Assembly: GCF_016811075.1 (NCBI RefSeq)
Contig: NZ_JAFBGL010000002.1
Span: 124,001 to 188,000, forward strand
Length of the DNA stretch: 64,000 nt
Reading direction: 5' to 3'
Origin: Oceaniferula flava
GTDB lineage: Bacteria > Verrucomicrobiota > Verrucomicrobiia > Verrucomicrobiales > Akkermansiaceae
Every line of letters starts with the position of its first letter. The first letter of the stretch is position 1. The notes under the pieces are model-generated. The model was not told the DNA's origin and did not search any database. It worked only from the letters and a program-made list of their open reading frames with translations. Positions 5,312 to 16,332 of this stretch are shown one piece after another. The translations under genes and the position numbers were made by a program.

Positions 5312-6766
5312 GTGGCGAACAATATTTTTGCGCAGTATCAGACGGAGCATTTCTTCGATGAAATGTTCTCGGCGTCTGGGGGCGAGGTCCGTGACCATTA
5401 CCGATTGTTGATGGAGCGGCTGTCGAAACTGGAGGCCTCCGACATCGATGAAATCCAACAGCGGATCACCACCGGATTTCTGGAAAGTGGTATCACCTTC
5501 ACCGTTTATGGAGACGACCGGGGGACCGAGCGGATTTTCCCTTTCGACCTCTTCCCCCGCATCATCACCTCCGACGAGTGGGAGCAGATCGAGTATGGTC
5601 TGACGCAGCGGATCACGGCCTTGAACTTGTTCCTGCACGATGTCTATCACGATGGCAACATCATCAAGGACGGCATCATCCCGGAGGAGGTGGTCAAGTC
5701 GGCAGCGCATTACCGGCCGGAAATGGTCGGCTTTACTCCGCCAGGAGACGTCTACCTGCATATCTGTGGATCCGATTTAATCCGTGACGACCAGGGAAAT
5801 TATCTGGTGCTGGAGGACAACGGTCGCTGCCCGTCGGGAGTTTCCTATCTGTTGGAAAACCGTGAGGCCATGAAGCGGGCCTTCCCTGATCTGTATCGCA
5901 AATACGGTGTCTGTCCGGTCGATCAATACCCGGAGATCTTGCTGGAAACGATGCAGTATCTCTCTCCGCGCAAGGGGCAAACGCCCGTCTGTGTGCTGCT
6001 CACTCCCGGCGTCTATAATAGCGCGTATTTCGAACACACCTTTCTCGCTCACAAGATGGGGATCGAAATTGTCGAAGGTCCCGATCTGCTGGTGAAAGAT
6101 GCCCACGTCTACATGCGCACCACGCGTGGTCTGGTGCAGGTGGATGTGATCTACCGCCGACTCGATGACGATTTTCTCGACCCTCTAGCCTTCAAGGAGG
6201 ACTCGCTGTTAGGTGTGCCCGGACTGATGGACGCCTACCTGCGTGGCAATGTTTCGCTGGCCAATGCCGTGGGCACCGGTGTCGCGGACGACAAGGTGAC
6301 CTACGCCTACGTGCCGGACATGATCCGTTATTATCTCGATCAGGAACCGATCCTCAACAACGTGCCGACCTACCTCGCCTGGCGCGATGACGATCGGAAA
6401 TACATGCTCGATCACCTGCCGGAGCTGGTGGTGAAGGCGGCGAATGAATCCGGCGGCTACGGCATGCTCATGGGGCCATCTTCCACCAAGGAGGAGCAGG
6501 CGACTTTTGCCAAGCTGATCCAGGAGAACCCCAGAAACTACATCGCCCAGCCTGTGGTCTCGCTTTCCAGACACCCGACCTTCTGCGATGGCAACATGCC
6601 GGAGGGTCGCCACGTCGATCTTCGTCCCTTCGCCCTCTTCGGTGAGAAAATCAACATCATCCCCGGCGGACTGACCCGTGTCGCCCTGACCAAGGGCTCG
6701 CTAGTGGTCAATTCCTCCCAAGGTGGCGGCAGTAAGGACACCTGGGTGCTCCGCTCACAGCCCTAG
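5312..6766 (+). CDS. Circularly permuted ATP-grasp protein (DUF404/DUF407 type)
   Basis: 484 aa from a GTG start (the nearby ATGs at 5298 and 5301 are in another frame). The N-terminus [10 protein letters not shown], the blocks [15 protein letters not shown]-like ([18 protein letters not shown]), [10 protein letters not shown] and [16 protein letters not shown], and the glycine loop [15 protein letters not shown] are characteristic of CP_ATPgrasp_1 proteins. Length matches the family (about 470-490 aa). These enzymes are thought to form amide or peptide-like bonds, but the substrate is unknown. The gene is first in a co-directional set with an alpha-E protein and a transglutaminase, an arrangement conserved in many bacteria and proposed to make or trim a peptide product. 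Only 22 bp separate it from the next gene. Confidence 0.92.
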
Positions 6767-6788
6767 TTCATTCCTCACCTCGATCACC

Positions 6789-7787
6789 ATGCTTTCCAGA
6801 GTTGCAGACAGTCTTATTTGGCACAGCCGTTACATCGAACGGGCTGAGAACCTCGCGCGTCTCGTGGCGGTGAGCGATCATGACTCGCTGGATTCCGCCA
6901 CCATGATGAATCGCTCCACCGCCCCAGCCTTGTATGCCGCCGGCGCCGAGCAGGCCTATGCCGAAGCTCTGGGGGTGGCTGAGATGGACGAGCTGGAAAT
7001 TGGCAACTTCATCGCCTTTTCAGAGCTCAACCCGGATTCCATCCGCACCTGCATCGCCCATGCCAGGGAGAACGCACGCATGGTGCGCGATCAGATTTCC
7101 GACGACATGTGGCTGGAGTGCAACCGCTTCCATCTCTATGTAAAATCGGAGAAGGCGATGCAGCTGTGGAAGGCTCACCCCGATGAATTTTACAATCGGG
7201 TGATCAAATTTTGCCTGCTCTATCAGGGACTAACAGACTCCACGATTCTCCACGATGAAGGATGGCACTTTGTCCTCTTAGGGCGCTATTTGGAGCGGGT
7301 GGATAAGACCAGCCGGATCATCGACATGCTGCATGCGACATCGAACCCGGACCGTGCCCAGCTCATCTCGGTGCTCAGCTCTTGTTCCGGGTTCTCGGCA
7401 TTCCGCACCGAATACCGCGGCGATATCAACCTGGAAAATGTCGTTTCCTTCCTGCTGTTCTCGCAATCGTTTCCGCGCAGTATTCGCTTTTGTTTGCGAC
7501 AGCTGGACGACACCTTACACGCCGTCTCCGGAATGCCCAACGGCAGCTTTTCCAACGAGGCGGAACGGCTCACCGGCTCGCTGCTGGCGAAGTTAAATTA
7601 CACCAGCCTGTCGTCGATTTGGGAACAGGGGCTGCATCAGTTCATCGATGCGCTGCAGTCCGACCTCAATGAGATCGGCCAGCAGATCTTCGAGACCTAC
7701 GTCCTGCTCGCTCCCGACAGGGATGCCCCGCCCGTGGGCGCACCGATCTGGCAGCAGTATCAACAGCAACAACAACAGCAGCAGTAA
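6789..7787 (+). CDS. Alpha-E domain protein (DUF403)
   Basis: 332 aa. The start is the ATG at 6789 (MLSRVADSLIWHSRYIERAEN), which matches the conserved family N-terminus. The longer frame upstream runs back into the ATP-grasp gene and is rejected. The family signature is visible: ERAENLARLVAVSDHD at about 19-34 and HFVLLGRYLERVDKTSRI in the middle of the chain. The protein is all-helical and expected to be cytoplasmic, acting with the ATP-grasp enzyme and transglutaminase. The C-terminus is odd: it ends WQQYQQQQQQQQ, encoded by a CAG/CAA tract (about 7751-7785) directly before the stop and 7 bp before the next start codon. Confidence 0.92.
   Translation: MLSRVADSLIWHSRYIERAENLARLVAVSDHDSLDSATMMNRSTAPALYAAGAEQAYAEALGVAEMDELEIGNFIAFSELNPDSIRTCIAHARENARMVRDQISDDMWLECNRFHLYVKSEKAMQLWKAHPDEFYNRVIKFCLLYQGLTDSTILHDEGWHFVLLGRYLERVDKTSRIIDMLHATSNPDRAQLISVLSSCSGFSAFRTEYRGDINLENVVSFLLFSQSFPRSIRFCLRQLDDTLHAVSGMPNGSFSNEAERLTGSLLAKLNYTSLSSIWEQGLHQFIDALQSDLNEIGQQIFETYVLLAPDRDAPPVGAPIWQQYQQQQQQQQ
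7751..7785 (+). repeat. CAG/CAA trinucleotide tract encoding a poly-Gln tail
   Basis: A run of CAG and CAA codons interrupted once by TAT encodes QQYQQQQQQQQ at the end of the alpha-E protein. Such tracts are prone to slippage. The transglutaminase frame is also open across it. Confidence 0.85.
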
Positions 7788-7794
7788 CTTTCTC

Positions 7795-8670
7795 ATGCGC
7801 CTCAGCGTTCATCACCGCACGACCTACCACTATTCCTCACCAGTGAGCAATAGCGTCAATGAACTGCGCCTGAAACCCAAGGAAAGTCCCTGGCAGCACT
7901 GTGAGCAATCGCTGGTCTACACCCTGCCGGCGACCCGTCTGAGTCACTTCATCGATTTCAATCGGAACTACGTCCACCATCTGGAAATCCCCGGCGCCCA
8001 CGACTCCTTGACCATCGATAGCTCCTGCACCGTGGAGACGCGCAGCAAAGTCGATTTTGAAGACCTACCGTATGGATTTCAGCACCGCGACCTGGCGCAG
8101 CTGCAGCGATCCGAGGAATGCCATCCCTTTTTGCAAACCAGTCTCTACGTCACCTGGGATCCGGCCACTTGGCGCATGGCGGTGGATATCAAAGACAGCT
8201 CCGAAGATGTTTTCCAGACCAGCTACGCCATCATGGAGCACATCTATCAGCACTACTCCTATCAGACCGGTGTCACCTCGGTGGATACCGATGCCCAACA
8301 GGTCATCCGCAGGAAAGAAGGGGTGTGCCAGGACTTTGCGCATGCCATGTTAGCCCTCTGCCGCTCCCTGGGGATTCCCGCCCGCTACGTCAGCGGCTAC
8401 TTCTTTGACGCCACTCACGACAGTAGCCTACGCGGCGCCCAGGCATCCCACGCCTGGGTGGAAGTCTTCATCGCGGATCACGGCTGGATTGGCCTCGATC
8501 CCACCAACAATAAAATCACCGACGCTACCTACATCGTGCTCGCCACCGGCCGCGACTACAAAGACGTCTCCCCGATCTCCGGAACCTACTACGGCCACTC
8601 ACAAAGTTTCCTCGACGTCTTCGTCAAAATCGAACGCCTGCCAGACCGAGCTGTGAGTCGATTGGTTTAG
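7795..8670 (+). CDS. Transglutaminase-like cysteine protease family protein
   Basis: 291 aa from the ATG at 7795 (MRLSVHHRTTYHYSSPVSNS), the standard family N-terminus, which carries the bacterial transglutaminase-like N-terminal domain (about 1-110). The catalytic triad is visible: Cys in KEGVCQDFAHAMLALCRSLG, His in ASHAWVEVFI, and Asp in WIGLDPTNN. This is the third gene of the ATP-grasp / alpha-E / transglutaminase triad. It probably hydrolyses or cross-links an amide made by the ATP-grasp partner. The ORF stays open upstream to 7648 in this frame, but homology starts at 7795. Confidence 0.93.
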   Translation: MRLSVHHRTTYHYSSPVSNSVNELRLKPKESPWQHCEQSLVYTLPATRLSHFIDFNRNYVHHLEIPGAHDSLTIDSSCTVETRSKVDFEDLPYGFQHRDLAQLQRSEECHPFLQTSLYVTWDPATWRMAVDIKDSSEDVFQTSYAIMEHIYQHYSYQTGVTSVDTDAQQVIRRKEGVCQDFAHAMLALCRSLGIPARYVSGYFFDATHDSSLRGAQASHAWVEVFIADHGWIGLDPTNNKITDATYIVLATGRDYKDVSPISGTYYGHSQSFLDVFVKIERLPDRAVSRLV

Positions 8671-8734: not shown

Positions 8735-9391
8735 ATGATTTGGGCGTTTATTGATTATGAAAATGTAGGTTCGTTAGAGGAGCTGAACCTACAGAAATAC
8801 GATAGACTACTCGTCTTCGTAGGCCCTCGGCACAAACGCATTAATCTAGGTGATATTCCCACAGACTCATTCAGTCGGCTCGAGATCATCCGCATGGAGA
8901 CCACGGGCAACAACAACCTCGATTTCCATCTAACGTTCTACATGGGCGTTGCGCATCGAGCGGCGGATAATAAAATCAGCTTCCACGTGATCTCCCACGA
9001 CAAGGGTTTCGATGGGTTGATCAATCACCTCAAAAGCCAAGGGCGAACCTGTCTCAGAAAAGGCAGCGCGAAGAAGAAAGTGGCCAAAGCTGCAGCGAAG
9101 AAAACGGCCACTAAGAAAGTCGCGAAGAAGGTAGCCAAAAAGGCGGTGAAAAAGGTTGCGAAGAAAGCGGCGAAAAAAGGAATCGCTAGCAATACATCTA
9201 CTGCTAAGATTATTACTAAACTTCGACTTGTGGCCCAAGATAAGCGACCTAATACCGTAGCAAAGTTAGTTAATTGGATAGCTAACAGTTCTCCTGCCGG
9301 TAATGAAAATAACGCAAAGCAGATTCTCGAGAATCTGAAGCGGGAAGGAGTCGTTAGAGGTCAGGAGAATGGTAAGTGCGTCTACCCTTAG
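8735..9391 (+). CDS. PIN/NYN-like domain protein with Lys/Ala-rich tail and C-terminal winged-helix-like segment
   Basis: 218 aa. Residues 1-108 resemble PIN-like (NYN-type) nucleases: FIDYENVG with D7, GNNNLDFHLTFYMG with D63, and FHVISHDKGFDGLINHLKS with D89 and D93, giving the acidic set expected for a metal-dependent RNase. Residues 110-150 are a nearly pure Lys/Ala repeat (KKVAKKAVKKVAKKAAKK) like histone H1 tails. Residues about 153-218 form a small helical domain ending in a beta hairpin-like GVVRGQENGKCVYP, compatible with a winged helix. The codon choice is more AT-rich than in the genes on either side, which may mean recent acquisition. RNA or DNA binding through the basic tail is inferred. 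The substrate is unknown. Confidence 0.75.
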   Translation: MIWAFIDYENVGSLEELNLQKYDRLLVFVGPRHKRINLGDIPTDSFSRLEIIRMETTGNNNLDFHLTFYMGVAHRAADNKISFHVISHDKGFDGLINHLKSQGRTCLRKGSAKKKVAKAAAKKTATKKVAKKVAKKAVKKVAKKAAKKGIASNTSTAKIITKLRLVAQDKRPNTVAKLVNWIANSSPAGNENNAKQILENLKREGVVRGQENGKCVYP

Positions 9392-9399
9392 TCTGAAAT

Positions 9400-9831
9400 T
9401 TAATGCGCGTGCTCGGCGCAGCCGTGGCATTTCACCCAGATGCTGGTGCCATCGGTGTAGTGTTCTTTTTTCCAGATGGGGACGGTGTGTTTGATCTCGT
9501 CGATGATGGCGCGGCAGGCGGTGAAGGCGGCGGCGCGATGGGCGGCGGAGACGGCGATGGCGATGGCGATTTCGCCAATCTGGAGGTGACCGGTGCGGTG
9601 CTGGCAGCGGGCGGCGACGACATCGTGCTCGGCGCAGATTTTTTCGAGGATGCGATTGCCTTCTTTTTCGGCAAGGGCAGGGAAGGCCTCGTATTCTAAC
9701 GATGCGACATCGCGGCCTTGGTGGTGGTTGCGCACCCAGCCTTCGAAGCTGGCGAAGCCACCGGCGGAGGGATCACGGACGGCATCACAAAGTGCGCGCG
9801 GGTCGATGGTTTGATCGGTTAACTTGAACAC
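9400..9831 (-). CDS. moaE: Molybdopterin synthase catalytic subunit MoaE
   Basis: 143 aa from the GTG at 9831 (VFKLTDQTIDPRAL), which gives the usual MoaE length. A frame opening at 9936 would start inside the mobA-moaD gene and add an unrelated basic extension. Family blocks are GGFASFEGWVRNHHQGRDV near the N-terminus, LEYEAFPALAEKEGNRIL, HRTGHLQIGEIAIAIAVSAAHR, and PIWKKEHYTDGTSIWV with the catalytic lysine pair. With the MoaD domain encoded just upstream it converts cyclic pyranopterin monophosphate to molybdopterin. The tail VKCHGCAEHAH carries two Cys and two His close together, more metal-ligand-like than usual. Confidence 0.93.
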   Translation of the reverse strand: MFKLTDQTIDPRALCDAVRDPSAGGFASFEGWVRNHHQGRDVASLEYEAFPALAEKEGNRILEKICAEHDVVAARCQHRTGHLQIGEIAIAIAVSAAHRAAAFTACRAIIDEIKHTVPIWKKEHYTDGTSIWVKCHGCAEHAH

Positions 9832-9872
9832 GGGGAAATAAGCTTGGTGTTTGGAATTTGCAGTTTGATGGC

Positions 9873-10679
9873 CTAGCCACCGGCGACGGGGGGGATGAAG
9901 ACGAGTTCCTCGCCTTCTGTTAGCTGGTGTGACCAATCGGTGAAGTCTCCGTTGACGGCGACCATCATGCCTTTGCGTTTCAGGGGGATGCTGTGTTTGG
10001 CGCGGATTTCTTCGAACACTCCGGCGGGGGTGACGGAGTGGGTGCGGTGGCTTTCGAGGTCGGTGCCGGCGAGTTCACGCAGTTGGGCGAAGTAGGAAAG
10101 AGTGATGGTCTTCTCGTTGGTGCTGCCGTCGAGTCGGGCGCGGATTTCGATGGCGTCGGCTTCAGTGTTGGTGTTGGCCAGTGGCCAGAGACCGGGGGAT
10201 GGCAGCGCTTGGCCATTGAGGTTTTTGAGCACTGAGCGGGGGCAGCGTTTTCCTGATTGAATAGATTCTAACACATGGCTGACGGTGGTAGGCGACCAGA
10301 TGGCGCAGAGTGGTTCAGGTAGTCCATCGGTGGCGCTGGAAAAGTAGGTGGCGTCACACTCCGCTGTGTGGGCATCTGCGAGTGTTTGTAGGTGGCCTTT
10401 TTCTAACAGTGGGAGGTCGCAGGCTAGCACAAACCATGCGCTTTTTGGGTCATGCTTTTGGGCAGAGGCGATGGCACCAAGCGGACCCACATTTCCAAAA
10501 GCATCTGCGATGACACCATCGCCATCACCCTCGGCAACGGAAATGAATACTTCATCACAAACCAATTCTAACAATTGAACGCCTCGCTCGCGCTGGGTCA
10601 GTCCGTCGCGGAAGACGATCTCGGATTTGTCCTCACCCATGCGGGAGGATTTGCCGCCGACTAGTAATAGGCCTTTCAT
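9873..10679 (-). CDS. MobA-MoaD fusion: molybdenum cofactor nucleotidyltransferase joined to the molybdopterin synthase sulfur carrier
   Basis: 268 aa, two domains. Residues 1-185 are MobA-like: the N-terminal nucleotide loop GGKSSRMGEDKSEI (8-21), GPLGAI, the metal-binding ACDLPLL (D88), and LANTNTEADA (167-176) in place of the usual NVNTPED block. Residues 190-268 are a MoaD/ThiS-type ubiquitin fold starting TITLSYFAQLRELAG and ending FIPPVAGG, with the free C-terminal Gly-Gly needed for adenylation and thiocarboxylation. There is no stop or start codon between them, so one chain would carry both the GMP/CMP-transfer and sulfur-carrier functions. It lies between moaC and moaE. The activating MoeB-type enzyme is not in the window. 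Confidence 0.88.
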   Translation of the reverse strand: MKGLLLVGGKSSRMGEDKSEIVFRDGLTQRERGVQLLELVCDEVFISVAEGDGDGVIADAFGNVGPLGAIASAQKHDPKSAWFVLACDLPLLEKGHLQTLADAHTAECDATYFSSATDGLPEPLCAIWSPTTVSHVLESIQSGKRCPRSVLKNLNGQALPSPGLWPLANTNTEADAIEIRARLDGSTNEKTITLSYFAQLRELAGTDLESHRTHSVTPAGVFEEIRAKHSIPLKRKGMMVAVNGDFTDWSHQLTEGEELVFIPPVAGG

Positions 10680-10691
10680 GTGATTGTTGGC

Positions 10692-11171
10692 TTAGCTCGC
10701 TGCGTAGTCGCCGCTCTTGCCGCCGGTTTTCTCCAGCAGCTTGGTTTCGCGGATCACCATGGCCTTGTTCACGGCCTTGCACATGTCGTAGAGCGTCAGC
10801 GCGGCGCCGTTGACTCCGGCGAGCGCTTCCATCTCGATGCCGGTTTTTCCGGTGGTGACACAGGTGCAGGTGATGGTGATCTCGGTGCCCGAGCTGGCTT
10901 CGATGTTGAACTTGCAGCTGTGCAGCGGCAACGGGTGGCAGAAGGGGATGAGGTCGGAGGTTTTCTTCGCCGCCATGGTGCCGGCGATGATGGCGGTGTG
11001 GAAAACCGGGCCTTTTTTGCTCTGGATCTCGCCGTCTGTGAGGAGCGACATCACCTCGGCGCCGACCTCGACGATGCTCTGCGCGGTGGCGGTGCGGCGG
11101 GTGACATCCTTCGGTGAGACATCGACCATGCCAGGCTGGTTGTTTTCGTTGATGTGGGTGAGCTGGGACAT
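10692..11171 (-). CDS. moaC: Cyclic pyranopterin monophosphate synthase MoaC
   Basis: 159 aa from the ATG at 11171 (MSQLTHINENNQPGMVDVS), the standard length. The longer upstream frame is a non-conserved extension over moeA. Signature blocks are VDVSPKDVTRRTA, the central PFCHPLPLHSCKFNIE and GKTGIEMEALAGVNGAALTL, with the conserved Lys/Glu of the active site. MoaC completes conversion of the MoaA product into cPMP, the first Moco intermediate. The gene sits between moeA and mobA-moaD on the minus strand. Confidence 0.96.
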   Translation of the reverse strand: MSQLTHINENNQPGMVDVSPKDVTRRTATAQSIVEVGAEVMSLLTDGEIQSKKGPVFHTAIIAGTMAAKKTSDLIPFCHPLPLHSCKFNIEASSGTEITITCTCVTTGKTGIEMEALAGVNGAALTLYDMCKAVNKAMVIRETKLLEKTGGKSGDYAAS

Positions 11172-11211
11172 TGTTGTTTGGACAGAATTGACGGAATTTT
11201 TCAGAATTTTT

Positions 11212-12387
11212 TTACCACGGGTAGTAGTGGACGAGGGTGCCGGCTGGAGATGTGGCAGCAAGTTCGCAGATGCCGCTGGCTCCTGCAAGTGCTGTGTAGT
11301 CGCCAGAGTTCCGTGGCGGTTGAGCATGGACGCTGTTTCCGGCTAGCTGCGATGCCACGAGGCCGGGGAATGGGGCGTTCCAGCGGACGTCTTTGGCGAG
11401 TGGGTAAGTGCTGGGCTGCCAGCTTTCGCCGCGCATGTTGCGAAGGGCGGGCAGGATGTAGCGCGCCATGCAAGCCATGACGGAGACCGGGTTGCCCGGC
11501 AGGGCGATGACGGGTGTCTCGCCGGGCCAGAAGGCCAAGGGTTTTCCCGGCCGCTGGGCAATGCCATGGAAGAGCGGATCCCCGACGAGGGCCTTCATCA
11601 CGGGGGCGACGTAATCGAATTTTCCCATCGAGATCCCGCCGGTGAGCAGGATGAGGTCGGCCGTTTCCATGCCCTGCTGCAGGGCTGCGTTTAGCGCGTC
11701 GAGGGTGTCTGGAACGTGGATGTTTTCCAAGCAACCGAGCCGGTGACCGGTGATGCTTGCGCCGATAGCGGGTGCGTGGCTGCGACGGATCTGGTGCGGC
11801 TGGGGGGATTCGGCCGGCGGGATGACTTCATCGCCGGTGGTGATGAGCAGGATCTTGGGGAGTTTGAAAACGCTGAGCTCGGTTTGGCCGACGGAGGCGG
11901 CGATGGCGGCTTCCGGTGCGCCGATGATCGCGCCGACGGGGACCAGCACCGCGCCGGTGTCGCTATCACTGCCCATCGGGTGAATGTGCTGACCCGCTTG
12001 GGCGGGGCAGGTGGGGCTGAGGTGGGCGATGCCGTTTTCCACCCGAATGTCCTCGACCTTGATGACACAATCGCAGCCCTCCGGCAGCACGGCCCCGGTC
12101 ATGACTTCGAGGCAAGTTTCCGGGTTCTTGAGTGAGATCGGGGCTTGCCCGGCGGCTTGGGTGCCGGCGATGGCAAACTCGCGCAGCCCGGACGCAAAAC
12201 TGTCGTAGGCGATGGCAATGCCGTCCATCATCACGCGGTGGTAGGGTGGGATGGCACGGTCGGCAGTGATCGCCACCGCCAGTCGGCGCCCCAGTGCCTG
12301 GTCGGCGTCGATTTCCTCGCTGCCCATGGTCGGGAGCTTGGAGAGGAGATGTTTTTCGGCCTCGTGGATGGAAATGAGCGGCTGCAC
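11212..12387 (-). CDS. moeA: Molybdopterin molybdenumtransferase MoeA
   Basis: 391 aa from a GTG at 12387 (VQPLISIHEAEKHLL); a TTG at 12399 is an alternative start. Motifs are PPYHRVMMDGIAIAYDSF in domain I, EVMTGAVLPEGCDCVIKVED, LLITTGDEVIPP, LLTGGISMGKFDYV, and ALPGNPVSVMACMARYILP in the C-terminal half. Length and order match MoeA, which inserts molybdate into adenylated molybdopterin. The minus-strand order is moeA, moaC, mobA-moaD, moaE, consistent with one transcript. moaA is divergent across only about 50 bp, so both promoters must share that gap. Confidence 0.95.
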   Translation of the reverse strand: MQPLISIHEAEKHLLSKLPTMGSEEIDADQALGRRLAVAITADRAIPPYHRVMMDGIAIAYDSFASGLREFAIAGTQAAGQAPISLKNPETCLEVMTGAVLPEGCDCVIKVEDIRVENGIAHLSPTCPAQAGQHIHPMGSDSDTGAVLVPVGAIIGAPEAAIAASVGQTELSVFKLPKILLITTGDEVIPPAESPQPHQIRRSHAPAIGASITGHRLGCLENIHVPDTLDALNAALQQGMETADLILLTGGISMGKFDYVAPVMKALVGDPLFHGIAQRPGKPLAFWPGETPVIALPGNPVSVMACMARYILPALRNMRGESWQPSTYPLAKDVRWNAPFPGLVASQLAGNSVHAQPPRNSGDYTALAGASGICELAATSPAGTLVHYYPW

Positions 12388-12441
12388 AAGATGGATCAAA
12401 TCACGCTTGGCCTTTTTTGTCCATCCGTGCGAGTGTTTCGC

Positions 12442-13452
12442 ATGCAGTCGCCCAGCGATACCCTGTCACGGCCACTCCGCGATCTTCGGATCTCGGTGAC
12501 GGATCGCTGTAATTTCCGCTGTCGCTATTGCATGCCGGCGGAGGTGTTTGGCCCGGGCTATGCTTTTTTGCCCAAGCCGGAGATCCTGACCCATGAGGAA
12601 ATCGCCACACTGGCTGCTGTGTTCTGCACGCTGGGTGTGGAAAAATTACGCATCACCGGAGGCGAGCCCCTACTACGGCGGGGGCTGCATGAGCTGATCG
12701 AAATGCTGGACGCCATCCCCGGCGAGCGCGATCTGGCGATGACGACCAATGGTGTGTTGCTGGGACGTTTTGCCGAGGACCTGGTGGGTGCCGGGCTGCA
12801 GCGCGCCACGGTATCGCTGGATGCTCTCGACGCCGAGACCTTTGCCAAGATGAACGGCGTGGGCGCGACTCCCGACAAGGTGATCCGTGGCATCGACGCC
12901 GCCCTGTCCGCAGGATTGGGGGTGAAAATCAACTGCGTGGTGCAGAAGGGGGTGAATGAAAATGAGGTCAGCGCTTTGGCGGAATTCGCCCGCAGCCGTC
13001 GGGTGGCGCTGCGCTTCATCGAGTTCATGGACACCGGCAATACCAACCGTTGGAAACGCGACCAGGTGGTGCCGTCCGCCGACTTGCTGGCTGAGCTGCG
13101 CCGCCACTACGATCTCCAGCCTGTTGCCTCGCCTCGTGTGGGGGAAACGGCGAAACGTTTCCATCACGCCGATCTCCCCGACACCGAAGTGGGTTTTATT
13201 TCCTCGGTGACCCAACCCTTTTGCAGCGACTGCAATCGTGCCCGGCTCTCTGCCGATGGCCAGATCTTCACCTGCTTGTTTGCCACCAAGGGGCACGACA
13301 TCAAAACGATGCTGCGCGATGGCGCCAGTGCCGAGGAGCTGACGCAAAAGATCGCCGCGCTCTGGGGGAGACGCGACGATCGATATTCGGAGCTGCGGGC
13401 CGGTCTGGCCGAGCCGATTGAAAAACCTGAGATGTCCTACATCGGAGGTTAG
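12442..13452 (+). CDS. moaA: GTP 3',8-cyclase MoaA (radical SAM)
   Basis: 336 aa from the ATG at 12442 (MQSPSDTLSRPLRDLRIS); the same frame runs open far upstream over moeA, but homology begins here. The radical SAM cluster is CNFRCRYC (C23, C27, C30), followed by LRITGGEPLLRRGL. The second, C-terminal cluster is QPFCSDCNRARLSADGQ with a further Cys in IFTCLFA, and the chain ends SYIGG, the conserved double-Gly tail. It catalyses the first step of Moco biosynthesis on GTP. Its TAG and the TAA of the opposing kinase gene overlap within one TTAG. Confidence 0.97.
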   Translation: MQSPSDTLSRPLRDLRISVTDRCNFRCRYCMPAEVFGPGYAFLPKPEILTHEEIATLAAVFCTLGVEKLRITGGEPLLRRGLHELIEMLDAIPGERDLAMTTNGVLLGRFAEDLVGAGLQRATVSLDALDAETFAKMNGVGATPDKVIRGIDAALSAGLGVKINCVVQKGVNENEVSALAEFARSRRVALRFIEFMDTGNTNRWKRDQVVPSADLLAELRRHYDLQPVASPRVGETAKRFHHADLPDTEVGFISSVTQPFCSDCNRARLSADGQIFTCLFATKGHDIKTMLRDGASAEELTQKIAALWGRRDDRYSELRAGLAEPIEKPEMSYIGG

Positions 13453-14600
13453 CCGGCGGTGGCCATGCGGGACTCCACGAGCTCGCCGAGAAGGACCCAG
13501 TTGTCCATGGCGTCATTTTTGATGAGGTCGGTGGAAAGCAGTGAGCCTGAGTAGAGGTAATTGATGACATTTTCCCAGGTATGAGGGCCTCCGATTTCTG
13601 TGCCGCGAGCTACGACCCAGCTGTCATTTTCCTCAGTTTTGACCTCTTCGGTTTTGATCTCTTTCTGAGCCAAGGCATGGGTGGGAGAATCCAGGACACT
13701 GAGGAACTTTTCAGGAGAGCTGGTAAATCTCTGCATCAGTTCGAGGTAGGACTCCTTGACTGCTTTGGGGCTCTGCGGACGTTCCTTGGGGTTGCGAGCG
13801 AGAAGCCAGTGAACCCATTGGCAGAGCCACTCCGGAAGATCGGGACGGAGCTCTTGCAGCGGGGTGATCTGGCCGCGTAAATGCGAGGCCATGATTTCGA
13901 TATTTGCAGCGCCTGTGCATGGGAAGGTTCCGGTGAGCGCAAGGTAGTAAATACAACCCATGGCATAGGTGTCTGATGCTGTGCTGGGTGCGGTGCCTTC
14001 AAAGCGCTCTGGAGCCATGCAGTAAATCGACCCGTAGGCGGCGTAGTGGCTCTCGAGTGGCATCTTGGTCTTGGCGAAGATCGATTGATCAAAGTCCAGA
14101 AGCTTATACTGCAGCTCACCCTGCTCGTTGACAGTTTGGAGAATGTTGTGCGGGTTCAGATCGCCGTGAACAATCCCAGAAGACTCGGCGCTGGCCAGAG
14201 CAGATTGAGTCTGGAACATCAAAGTGGTCAGATCTTCGACGGAGAATTTGCCTTTGGCGAATACTTGATCCAGCGACTGTCCCCTGAGCGATTCCATGAC
14301 GATGCAGACGCGATTGTCTGTTTCGTAAACATCATAGATGGAAATAATGTTCGGATGATTGACGGCTGCCAGCATTAGGGCTTCCACGCGGAGCGTGTGA
14401 GATACTTCTGGCATGGTTGGGAGGAGACGTTTGACAGACACTTCGCGGTCAAGTTTCTCGTCGTGAGCCCGATTCACCACCGCGAGGCCGTTACCTCCCC
14501 CATGGTTCTCAAGAGTTTCTAAGATGGTGTAACGCGGTTCAGAAGCTGCAGCTTCGAGTTCGACAGGTTCTAGGCGGATGGGTTGTTCGAGCGTTGTCAT
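13449..14600 (-). CDS. Atypical Ser/Thr protein kinase with C-terminal GYF-like domain
   Basis: 383 aa. Residues about 23-290 form an eukaryotic-type kinase fold: VSVKRL with K57, E73 in the C-helix, HGDLNPHN (145-152) as the catalytic loop, DFD (169-171) where most kinases have DFG, and the APE equivalent APERFEG. The catalytic Asp (D147), Asn (N152) and metal Asp (D169) are kept, so activity is possible, but the glycine loop (NHGGGNG) and the HGDL and DFD motifs are unusual. Residues about 327-378 (WVVARGTEIGGPHTWENVI, then NWVLLGELV) resemble a GYF_2 domain, a peptide-binding module. There is no membrane helix, so the protein is cytoplasmic. It is convergent with moaA. Its substrate is unknown. 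Confidence 0.85.
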   Translation of the reverse strand: MTTLEQPIRLEPVELEAAASEPRYTILETLENHGGGNGLAVVNRAHDEKLDREVSVKRLLPTMPEVSHTLRVEALMLAAVNHPNIISIYDVYETDNRVCIVMESLRGQSLDQVFAKGKFSVEDLTTLMFQTQSALASAESSGIVHGDLNPHNILQTVNEQGELQYKLLDFDQSIFAKTKMPLESHYAAYGSIYCMAPERFEGTAPSTASDTYAMGCIYYLALTGTFPCTGAANIEIMASHLRGQITPLQELRPDLPEWLCQWVHWLLARNPKERPQSPKAVKESYLELMQRFTSSPEKFLSVLDSPTHALAQKEIKTEEVKTEENDSWVVARGTEIGGPHTWENVINYLYSGSLLSTDLIKNDAMDNWVLLGELVESRMATAG

Positions 14601-15007
14601 GGTCGGGTAGTGAGTCGTTGCTAGTTGTTTTGGAGGGAACTACGTAGAAGGTGAGCGGTGCGCTGCGCTCTGCGTTGATTTATAAAAAAGATACATTAAT
14701 GATCTGGGGTTACGAGAATTCATTACAAAAAAGCATTTAAAAACAGTCGTTTTGCTATCAAAATGTTAATTATAATACTCATCCTTTGCCGTAATATCAA
14801 CGTTTCTAGCTTGTTACAGAAAAACTGTTAAAAGTGCGCTGTGGTGCGACTTGGTTTAGTAAACTTTGATTAATTAAGTTGTAGTCAAGGCGATTCAGAA
14901 GGCTCCAAATCATCTTAGTGTATATTTTCTATAATCCTTATTCCCCTTGGCTGGAGCTTGTTGCGTGTCCCATTTCACTGCTTTTTGGCCGTGCAAGCGC
15001 AGTTGAT
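14601..15007. other. AT-rich intergenic region, divergent promoters expected
   Basis: About 400 bp without a convincing gene and clearly more AT-rich than its surroundings. It separates the kinase (minus) from the MOSC gene (plus). A perfect TATAAT lies at 14930-14935, about 75 bp before the MOSC ATG, and another TATAAT at 14771-14776. Neither has a good -35 at 17 bp. The MOSC frame is open from a GTG at 14918, but the added residues look unlike a protein start. Confidence 0.6.
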
Positions 15008-15535
15008 ATGAGGCAGCCTCGGCTTGTGAACGTGACTCTTAAACAACTCTATATTTCCCCCGGGCATAATTACTTTGGCCGACACGGTAAGGGGTCGATG
15101 GATCATGTGATCGAAGAAGTGGAGGTGATGCGCTGCGTCGCCGGCCATGGCATCGAGGGGGATCGCTTTTATGATTTCGAACCCGACTACAAGGGCCAGC
15201 TGACGTTTTTTGATTGGGCGGTTTACCAAGAGGTGCAGGAAGAGATTGTGAAGGGGGAGCTGAGTCCGAGCGCATTTAGAAGGAATGTGCTGATTGAAGG
15301 GGTGGATCTCAACGAACTGATCGGCAAACGATTCACCCTCGGCGGTCTGGAATTCACCGGTTCCGGCGAGTGCAAACCCTGTTACTGGATGGACGAAGCC
15401 TGTGCTCCTGGGGCCTTCGAATTTCTCAAGGGGCGTGGAGGCTTACGAACTCGCATCGTCCAAGGTGGAAAATTGACACCCGGTGACTATGAGCTGGAGG
15501 TGACCGGTGAAGTGGAACCTGATCCAGGTAAATGA
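15008..15535 (+). CDS. MOSC-domain protein
   Basis: 175 aa from the ATG at 15008 (MRQPRLVNVTLKQLYISPG). Blocks typical of MOSC proteins are HGIEGDRFYDFEPDYKGQLT, SPSAFRRNVLIEGVDLNELIGKRF-type (FRRNVLIEGVDLNELIGKRF) and FTGSGECKPCYWMDEACAPG, with the conserved Cys in CKPC. MOSC domains carry sulfur and bind the molybdenum cofactor. The TGA overlaps the ATG of fdhD as ATGA, so the two are translationally coupled and probably act together in cofactor sulfuration or transfer. Confidence 0.9.
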   Translation: MRQPRLVNVTLKQLYISPGHNYFGRHGKGSMDHVIEEVEVMRCVAGHGIEGDRFYDFEPDYKGQLTFFDWAVYQEVQEEIVKGELSPSAFRRNVLIEGVDLNELIGKRFTLGGLEFTGSGECKPCYWMDEACAPGAFEFLKGRGGLRTRIVQGGKLTPGDYELEVTGEVEPDPGK

Positions 15536-16332
15536 CGGGACAATCGACAGATTTCCAAATCTGGAAATACGGCGCTGGCAAGCTCTCCGAGCAGTCCGAT
15601 CATGCGGCAGCCGAAGAGCCGCTTCAGATCACCGTGGATGGCACTCCTGTGGCAGTGGTGATGCGCACGCCGGGGCACGATCTGGATCTGGTGACTGGGT
15701 TTTTGCTGACAGAGGGCTTGGTGGCCTCGGTGGCGGATGTCATGCGCATTGATTTAGAACAGAAAAAGAACCACGCGCTGGTTTTCTTGGCGGATGAGGT
15801 GGTGCTGGATCACGCCAAGCTAAGTCGGAATCTTTTCAGCGCTTCGTCCTGCGGCATTTGCGGCAAGGCGAGCATCGAGGCCATTCACCTTCAGGCCGCG
15901 CCCGTGGAGGATGGTTTTTCCGTTGATGCCGATATCTTGTTAACGATGCCCAAGGCGCTGCGTGCCGCTCAGGAGATCTTCGAGAGCACTGGTGGCTTGC
16001 ACGCCGCAGGTCTGGCCAATGCCCAAGGTGAGATCCTGGTGCTGCGCGAGGACGTAGGCAGACACAATGCTATCGATAAAGTCATTGGCTGGGCTGCGAT
16101 GGAAAAGGTGGATCTCTCCCTGACTCTGCTTCAGGTATCGGGTCGGGTCTCCTTCGAGGTCATGCAGAAAGCGCTGATGGCGCGCATTCCGATGGTGTCC
16201 GCGATCTCCGCGCCCTCGTCACTGGCCATCGAATTTGCCCGTGAAAGCCGGCAGAGCCTGGTGGGGTTCTTGCGTCCACCGACCTTCAACGTCTACGCCG
16301 GCCCCCAGCGGATCACTGGCGCTGAGCGATAA
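15532..16332 (+). CDS. fdhD: Formate dehydrogenase accessory sulfurtransferase FdhD
   Basis: 266 aa. The family motif SSCGICGKASIEAI near residue 105 holds the CXXC used to pass sulfur from a cysteine desulfurase to the Mo/W-bis-PGD cofactor. Other conserved blocks are MRTPGHDLDLVTGFLLTEG, GGLHAAGLANAQGEIL, REDVGRHNAIDKVIGWA and SGRVSFEVMQKALMARIP. It starts 4 bp inside the MOSC gene. No formate dehydrogenase structural gene is present in the window, so the client enzyme is encoded elsewhere. A cysteine desulfurase gene lies 23 kb away. Confidence 0.96.
   Translation: MTGQSTDFQIWKYGAGKLSEQSDHAAAEEPLQITVDGTPVAVVMRTPGHDLDLVTGFLLTEGLVASVADVMRIDLEQKKNHALVFLADEVVLDHAKLSRNLFSASSCGICGKASIEAIHLQAAPVEDGFSVDADILLTMPKALRAAQEIFESTGGLHAAGLANAQGEILVLREDVGRHNAIDKVIGWAAMEKVDLSLTLLQVSGRVSFEVMQKALMARIPMVSAISAPSSLAIEFARESRQSLVGFLRPPTFNVYAGPQRITGAER

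Follow-up and report, generated by a model that had tools for sequence, protein, structure and literature searches.

A MobA-MoaD fusion in the molybdenum cofactor operon of Oceaniferula flava, a probable bifunctional protein from joined operon genes

Fusions of molybdenum cofactor (Moco) genes within a conserved operon are already known. The sulfur carrier MoaD has been reported joined to MoaE, and to MoeB or MoeBR, in the available portion of a screen of Archaea (PMC11237513). In MoaX and other MoaD-MoaE fusions, MoaD is attached to a second Moco-synthesis protein, as it is in the gene described here, but MoaE blocks the Gly-Gly tail and the fusion has to be cleaved (PMC4326299 and PMC11237513, as far as the accessible text of each goes), whereas in our gene MoaD is C-terminal and its tail is free. 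In the MoaD-MoeB fusions of Thaumarchaeota and others, the same portion of PMC11237513 shows MoaD joined to its own activating enzyme, whereas here the partner is the enzyme of the last step, MobA. Models for MobA fusions in NCBIfam likewise join MobA to a Moco protein: PRK14490 and PRK14489 combine it with MobB, and PRK14500 is a MoaC/MobA model. Also close are the split mobA and moaD genes of moaC-mobA-moaD-moaE operons, such as those of Dyella and Rhodanobacter, where the same two proteins follow in the same order but in two reading frames. The MobA-MoaD pairing itself is new to the literature searched, a search that left subscription papers largely outside its scope. It is not described in the portions available of PMC6147048, PMC11237513, PMC2700814, PMC7759655, PMC6650914, PMC5406005 or PMC4326299.

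The gene lies in a 64,000-nucleotide stretch of the Oceaniferula flava genome, the whole of which we refer to as the window. The first-pass annotation of this DNA had placed a complete MobA and a MoaD domain in one frame at 9873-10679, leaving the strand unstated; the coordinates proved exact, and the frame runs on the minus strand. Two Pfam domains are recognized: NTP_transf_3 (PF12804), which spans residues 3-154 and scores 81.5 bits against a cut-off of 27 (E 9.8e-23), and ThiS (PF02597), which spans residues 195-268 and scores 53.1 bits against a cut-off of 22.5 (E 4.8e-14). The protein holds the motifs GGKSSRMGEDKS, ACDLPLL, LANTNTEADA and PPVAGG. Residues G8, G9, S11, R13, M14, G15, K18 and D88 are invariant in 26/26 aligned fusions. 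We take the GGxSxRMGxDK loop to bind the nucleotide and the Asp of ACDLP to contribute a metal site. The order of the domains was also rightly said to leave the MoaD C-terminus free, as the Gly-Gly pair forms the last two residues, directly before the stop codon, and is likewise invariant in all 26. We put the probability at roughly 85% that this is a single bifunctional Moco protein acting as both MoaD and MobA, which would have come from joined operon genes and would bring either co-production or no benefit at all. Coordinates of the gene and its Moco neighbors are collected in the table below.

Features of the mobA-moaD gene and the neighboring Moco genes (positions within the window)
Feature	Coordinates	Strand	Details
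mobA-moaD fusion gene	9873..10679	minus (10679 -> 9873)	268 aa, ATG..TAG
MobA domain, residues 1-180	10140..10679	minus	GGKSSRMGxDK loop, GPLGAI, ACDLP; AF2 model aligns to E. coli MobA
Linker, ~residues 181-190	10110..10139	minus	
MoaD domain, residues 191-268	9876..10109	minus	PPVAGG at extreme C-terminus
moaE, MPT synthase large subunit	9400..9831	minus	start read as GTG at 9831
moaC ORF	10692..11327	minus	Pfam MoaC E 9.6e-50; TIGR00581 175.6 bits, cut-off 141.5
moeA, molybdotransferase	11212..12399	minus	Pfam MoeA_N 2.1e-34, MoCF_biosynth 7.1e-26
moaA, GTP 3',8-cyclase, domain from ~residue 105	12145..13452	plus	TIGR02666 375.7 bits, cut-off 284.05
MOSC-domain protein	14918..15535	plus	Pfam MOSC E 5.6e-11
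fdhD, formate dehydrogenase accessory sulfurtransferase	15532..16332	plus	TIGR00129 182.2 bits, cut-off 140.9

Neither half reaches its NCBIfam equivalog cut-off: the MobA half scores 53.3 bits against TIGR02665 (curated cut-off 151.85) and the MoaD half 51.2 bits against TIGR01682 (curated cut-off 66.15). The names MobA and MoaD therefore rest on the Pfam domains, motifs, fold and genomic context. The top NCBIfam matches of the MobA half are the MobA fusion models PRK14490 and PRK14500, both below cut-off, and neither the window protein nor a Gluconobacter fusion (L049) matched any NCBIfam model for MobA/MoaD. The MoaD half matches E. coli MoaD (1fm0_D) at E 2e-8 in phmmer. An AF2 model built from an alignment of 26 fused proteins has a mean pLDDT of 92.2, and in it the MobA half matches the structure of E. 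coli MobA (1h4d) over 174 residues with Z 18.2 and rmsd 3.1. That structure comparison covered mainly residues 1-187, so the assignment of the MoaD fold draws on sequence.

The gene sits within a Moco operon. On the minus strand the order is moeA, moaC, mobA-moaD, moaE, with moaA divergent and the MOSC-domain gene and fdhD nearby on the plus strand. MoaE was matched by Pfam at E 8.1e-36 on a longer ORF (9400-9936) and by NCBIfam MoaE models below their cut-offs. The true moaC start is probably an internal ATG near 11171, the MoaC match beginning at about residue 52. Adjoining the operon at 8735-9391 (plus strand) is a gene for a PIN7-domain protein (PF18475, E 1.4e-25) that continues into a lysine/alanine-rich, histone-H1-like stretch. 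Genes for circularly permuted ATP-grasp, Alpha-E and transglutaminase proteins, a conserved trio, cluster at 5312-8670 (plus strand), and their three listed ORFs overlap. The ORF at 13449-14600 (minus strand), which encodes a protein-kinase-like protein (Pkinase E 4.3e-36), runs up to the end of moaA.

No MobA and no MoaD other than the fusion was found in the draft genome (3.95 Mb in 51 contigs, 98.5% complete), so the stand-alone copies that the first-pass annotation had named as a possible refutation did not turn up; a draft of this kind may still conceal a second mobA or moaD. The sole other ThiS-family match is ThiS itself (66 aa, TIGR01683 55.1 bits, cut-off 37.45). Five other proteins match NTP_transf_3: one is IspD, one is KdsB, two resemble sugar-phosphate nucleotidyltransferases below NCBIfam cut-offs, and the fifth falls under the Pfam cut-off and has no NCBIfam match at 1e-20. 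The genome also encodes a MoeB-type protein (PRK05690 310.7 bits, cut-off 266), which also matches models of MoeZ-type adenylyltransferase/sulfurtransferases across its whole length, below cut-off, and there is a second ThiF-family match (L040). Stand-alone MogA/MoaB was not found in the draft genome, where PF00994 matches only MoeA and a CinA-type protein (L227, G000:C5:143800-144309). The PF00384 matches are a formate-dehydrogenase/nitrate-reductase-like oxidoreductase, an FdhF/YdeP-family oxidoreductase and NuoG, and no enzymes of the XO or SO families were detected in this genome. We take the two molybdoenzymes to belong to the DMSO-reductase family and to use bis-MGD. Among the three families searched, the molybdoenzymes found are thus of the bis-MGD-using kind, and the fusion gene is the sole source found of two activities needed to make this cofactor.

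Among 58 genomes searched, 45 matched the query, the window's own included, and 26, again with its own, carry an uninterrupted full-length fusion. These carriers comprise 25/36 genomes of the window's family and one genome of another family; the 25 other fusions are 33-74% identical to the window protein. Two more fusions are cut by contig ends, and two genomes (G025, G043) have separate adjacent genes; the contig-edge partial matches L031 and L033 were left out of the fused count. The first-pass annotation had named a sequencing error as what might undo the fusion. Some other genomes do have the two genes separate and side by side, as a masked stop and start between two genes would suppose, but the frame is uninterrupted in 25 further genomes and in isolate records such as those of Gluconobacter, and we regard such an error, whether of sequencing or assembly, as having a negligible chance of explaining the gene. 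Twenty genomes of one genus of the window's family (g3; 2.2-3.5 Mb) gave no match to the fusion in the phylum search, and this genus may have lost the locus or never had it.

Each of the 26 fusion genomes gave a single query match, which means none has a second MobA close to that of the window. Besides the fusion, 25 of 27 ThiS-family proteins match ThiS; the 27 are the window genome's ThiS and 26 proteins from 24 genomes, namely 23 with a full fusion and one whose fusion copy is cut (G002). Two of these 24 relatives, G028 (L202) and G013 (L221), have an extra small MoaD/SAMP1-like protein ending in PPMSGG or PPMAGG. A second MoaD/SAMP-like protein is likewise found in 2/14 fused genomes reached through named loci (L054, L064), the other additional above-cut-off ThiS-family matches scanned in those 14 being ThiS. 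By eye, L193 resembles L191.

Both halves of the fusion are under purifying selection. In eight pairs, of which two have one row in common and one has saturated dS, dN/dS is 0.08-0.38 for the MobA half and 0.02-0.24 for the MoaD half, below 0.4 in both halves in 8/8. These low values, the invariant motifs in both halves and the finding of no other copy of either domain in the window's own genome make it very unlikely that either half is a non-functional remnant beside a working partner, a reading to which the unmet NCBIfam equivalog cut-offs of both halves would lend themselves.

Two routes could in principle yield a free MoaD from the fused gene. The first, an internal translation start, is unlikely for the window gene. 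It has no in-frame ATG, GTG or TTG in codons 151-220, which leaves the 40 codons ahead of the MoaD domain without a start codon; the nearest upstream is GTG at codon 150, inside MobA, where initiation is conceivable. With in-frame starts absent across codons 151-220, translation is not expected to begin at the former gene boundary and yield a free MoaD. For the family as a whole such a start is possible: between codons -8 and +3 relative to the beginning of the MoaD domain, 12/49 fused genes have an ATG and 31/49 have some start codon. The second route is a protease that cuts the linker and releases two proteins to work separately, as for MoaX, a MoaD-MoaE fusion that requires cleavage according to the accessible part of PMC4326299. 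In MoaX, however, the MoaD C-terminus is blocked by MoaE, while in the MobA-MoaD fusion it is free, and the linker sequence varies among fusions so that no shared cleavage motif is obvious. We consider such processing improbable and favor both activities residing in one uncleaved chain, as the free tail and the variable linker suggest.

How widespread such NTP_transf_3 plus ThiS proteins are could be judged from broader searches. A scan of genome contigs kept the best 80 of 427 relatives. Fusions among these 80 came from Akkermansiaceae, Luteolibacter, Opitutae, Fibrobacteres, Gluconobacter, Steroidobacteraceae and other Gammaproteobacteria records, and separate adjacent genes from Dyella, Rhodanobacter, an Acetobacteraceae bacterium, Lentisphaera, Hydrogenedentota and Omnitrophica. 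Many other loci of the 80, mostly from Bacteroidota, showed a MobA match alone or a moaD far off. In a phylum sample, 73/240 genomes matched (own included), and 20 regions with both halves close together divided into 2 fused and 18 split; outside these 20 lay the adjacent pairs G218 and G283 and the unlinked pair G170. Plasmid records gave 15 matches, 2 of them across at least 80% of the query, and the best, from Komagataeibacter xylinus, has both annotated as separate genes. Altogether we collected 79 distinct side-by-side loci (82 rows minus the three duplicates L046, L060 and L156), 49 fused and 30 with separate genes in the same order, numbers that describe a sample and not a census, since the contig search took the best 80 of 427 relatives. 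The fused loci come from Verrucomicrobiota, Proteobacteria and one Fibrobacteres record. The description of the fusion as unusual calls for some tempering, given 49 distinct fused loci in this sample.

In a neighbor scan of the 79 loci with eight modelled genes, moaC was found within 1 kb upstream in 65 (41/49 fused, 24/30 split) and moaE within 1.2 kb downstream in 72 (43/49 fused, 29/30 split). The gap between domain bounds is 12-51 nt in fused loci and 8-102 nt in split loci. As read by eye, the mobA stop overlaps the moaD start in 10/13 split junctions examined.

Fused and split states have changed repeatedly. A tree of both domains without the linker, from which loci with a single domain or with the two domains at least 150 nt apart were left out, has 7 fused/split changes, at least 4 of them forced by supported branches, and a single change was seen in 0/200 bootstrap trees. 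Constraining all 49 fused rows to one clade costs 145 log units (p-AU 2.9e-11), and constraining just the main Verrucomicrobial fusions (30) and the proteobacterial ones (15) to one clade costs 87.5 log units (p-AU 1.7e-5), the tested groups having been named after the first tree had been viewed. A single fused clade is therefore rejected, at p-AU 2.9e-11, and so is the joint Verrucomicrobial and proteobacterial one, at p-AU 1.7e-5, while counts of changes do not distinguish gain from loss. The simplest account is that neighboring genes of the operon were joined on more than one occasion, in Verrucomicrobiota as well as Proteobacteria. We favor this view because, where the two genes are split, they lie side by side and often overlap. 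One gain followed by several losses by fission is possible, and fission is a possible account of G043 in particular, as this split locus adjoins the fused G040 inside an otherwise fused clade. Five Gluconobacter fusions retain an ATG at about the old moaD start, which would fit a rather recent loss of the mobA stop. Repeated independent fusion might also reflect an assembly line of MPT synthase, MoeA and MobA, in which MobA is carried to the site where molybdopterin is made; to us this seems a doubtful prospect.

The fusion would work as follows. Its C-terminal MoaD domain would be activated at the free Gly-Gly by the genome's own MoeB-type protein, would dock into MoaE and would give its sulfur to cPMP, yielding molybdopterin. 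The N-terminal MobA domain would later add GMP to the molybdenum-loaded cofactor, toward the bis-MGD of the two DMSO-reductase-family enzymes. In the known pathway, MoaD leaves MoaE after donating its sulfur, is re-armed on MoeB and returns, and molybdenum insertion falls between the MPT synthase step and the MobA step (both from the portion of PMC6650914 available). MobA would thus be a passenger on the amino terminus of MoaD while MoaD shuttles between MoeB and MoaE. A direct hand-over from MoaD to MobA is not expected, as the substrate of MobA exists only after molybdenum has been inserted. The gene itself would have arisen by joining adjacent genes of the conserved moaC-mobA-moaD-moaE operon, probably several times.

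The first-pass annotation had proposed that the fusion could channel molybdopterin from the synthase to nucleotide transfer. On such a channelling or scaffolding reading, the fusion would keep MobA beside MPT synthase, and MoeA with it, so that molybdopterin reaches MobA without release. The AF2 model of the window protein is in keeping with a fixed arrangement (pTM 0.87, linker pLDDT above 90, judged without PAE), and the alternation of fused and split forms on the tree could reflect repeated selection for fusion. The intervening molybdenum insertion, from the same part of PMC6650914, speaks against it. So does the model of a Gluconobacter fusion, which has a pTM of 0.68 and a low-confidence linker (pLDDT about 60) from a shallower alignment of 14 rows. 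Alignment A3 holds 14 of the tree's 15 proteobacterial fusions, the truncated L066 having been left out. High pTM in one model was not repeated in the second, so the two models do not agree in predicting a fixed arrangement of the domains, and we rejected fixed geometry as a general feature. The variable spacing between domain bounds in fused loci and the 30/79 loci that keep the genes separate likewise tell against channelling, which we judge quite unlikely.

We also rejected the idea that the fusion serves genomes that make only MGD and so tracks the lack of XO-family enzymes: XO-family matches occur in 17/44 fused and 14/30 split genomes, in a comparison that includes 29 genomes reached through named loci without a completeness figure, SO-family enzymes having been searched for in the window's own genome. 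With no direct hand-over, no shared geometry and no link to the lack of XO-family enzymes, a bifunctional protein with simple co-production, possibly of neutral origin, is favored. The benefit is likely to be co-production at a 1:1 ratio, which is fixed because the domains are fused, or none at all if the joining was neutral, rather than channelling.

What sets this locus apart is that a sulfur carrier is joined to the final nucleotide-transfer enzyme with its tail unblocked, on several branches, and as the sole source found of both activities. The fusion offers a natural way to ask if MobA and MPT synthase come together in living cells. Should they stay apart, it would be a clean example of the neutral joining of operon genes. 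If MPT synthase, MoeA and MobA do form an assembly line, the last enzyme of bis-MGD synthesis and the carrier of an early step would gain from being held together.
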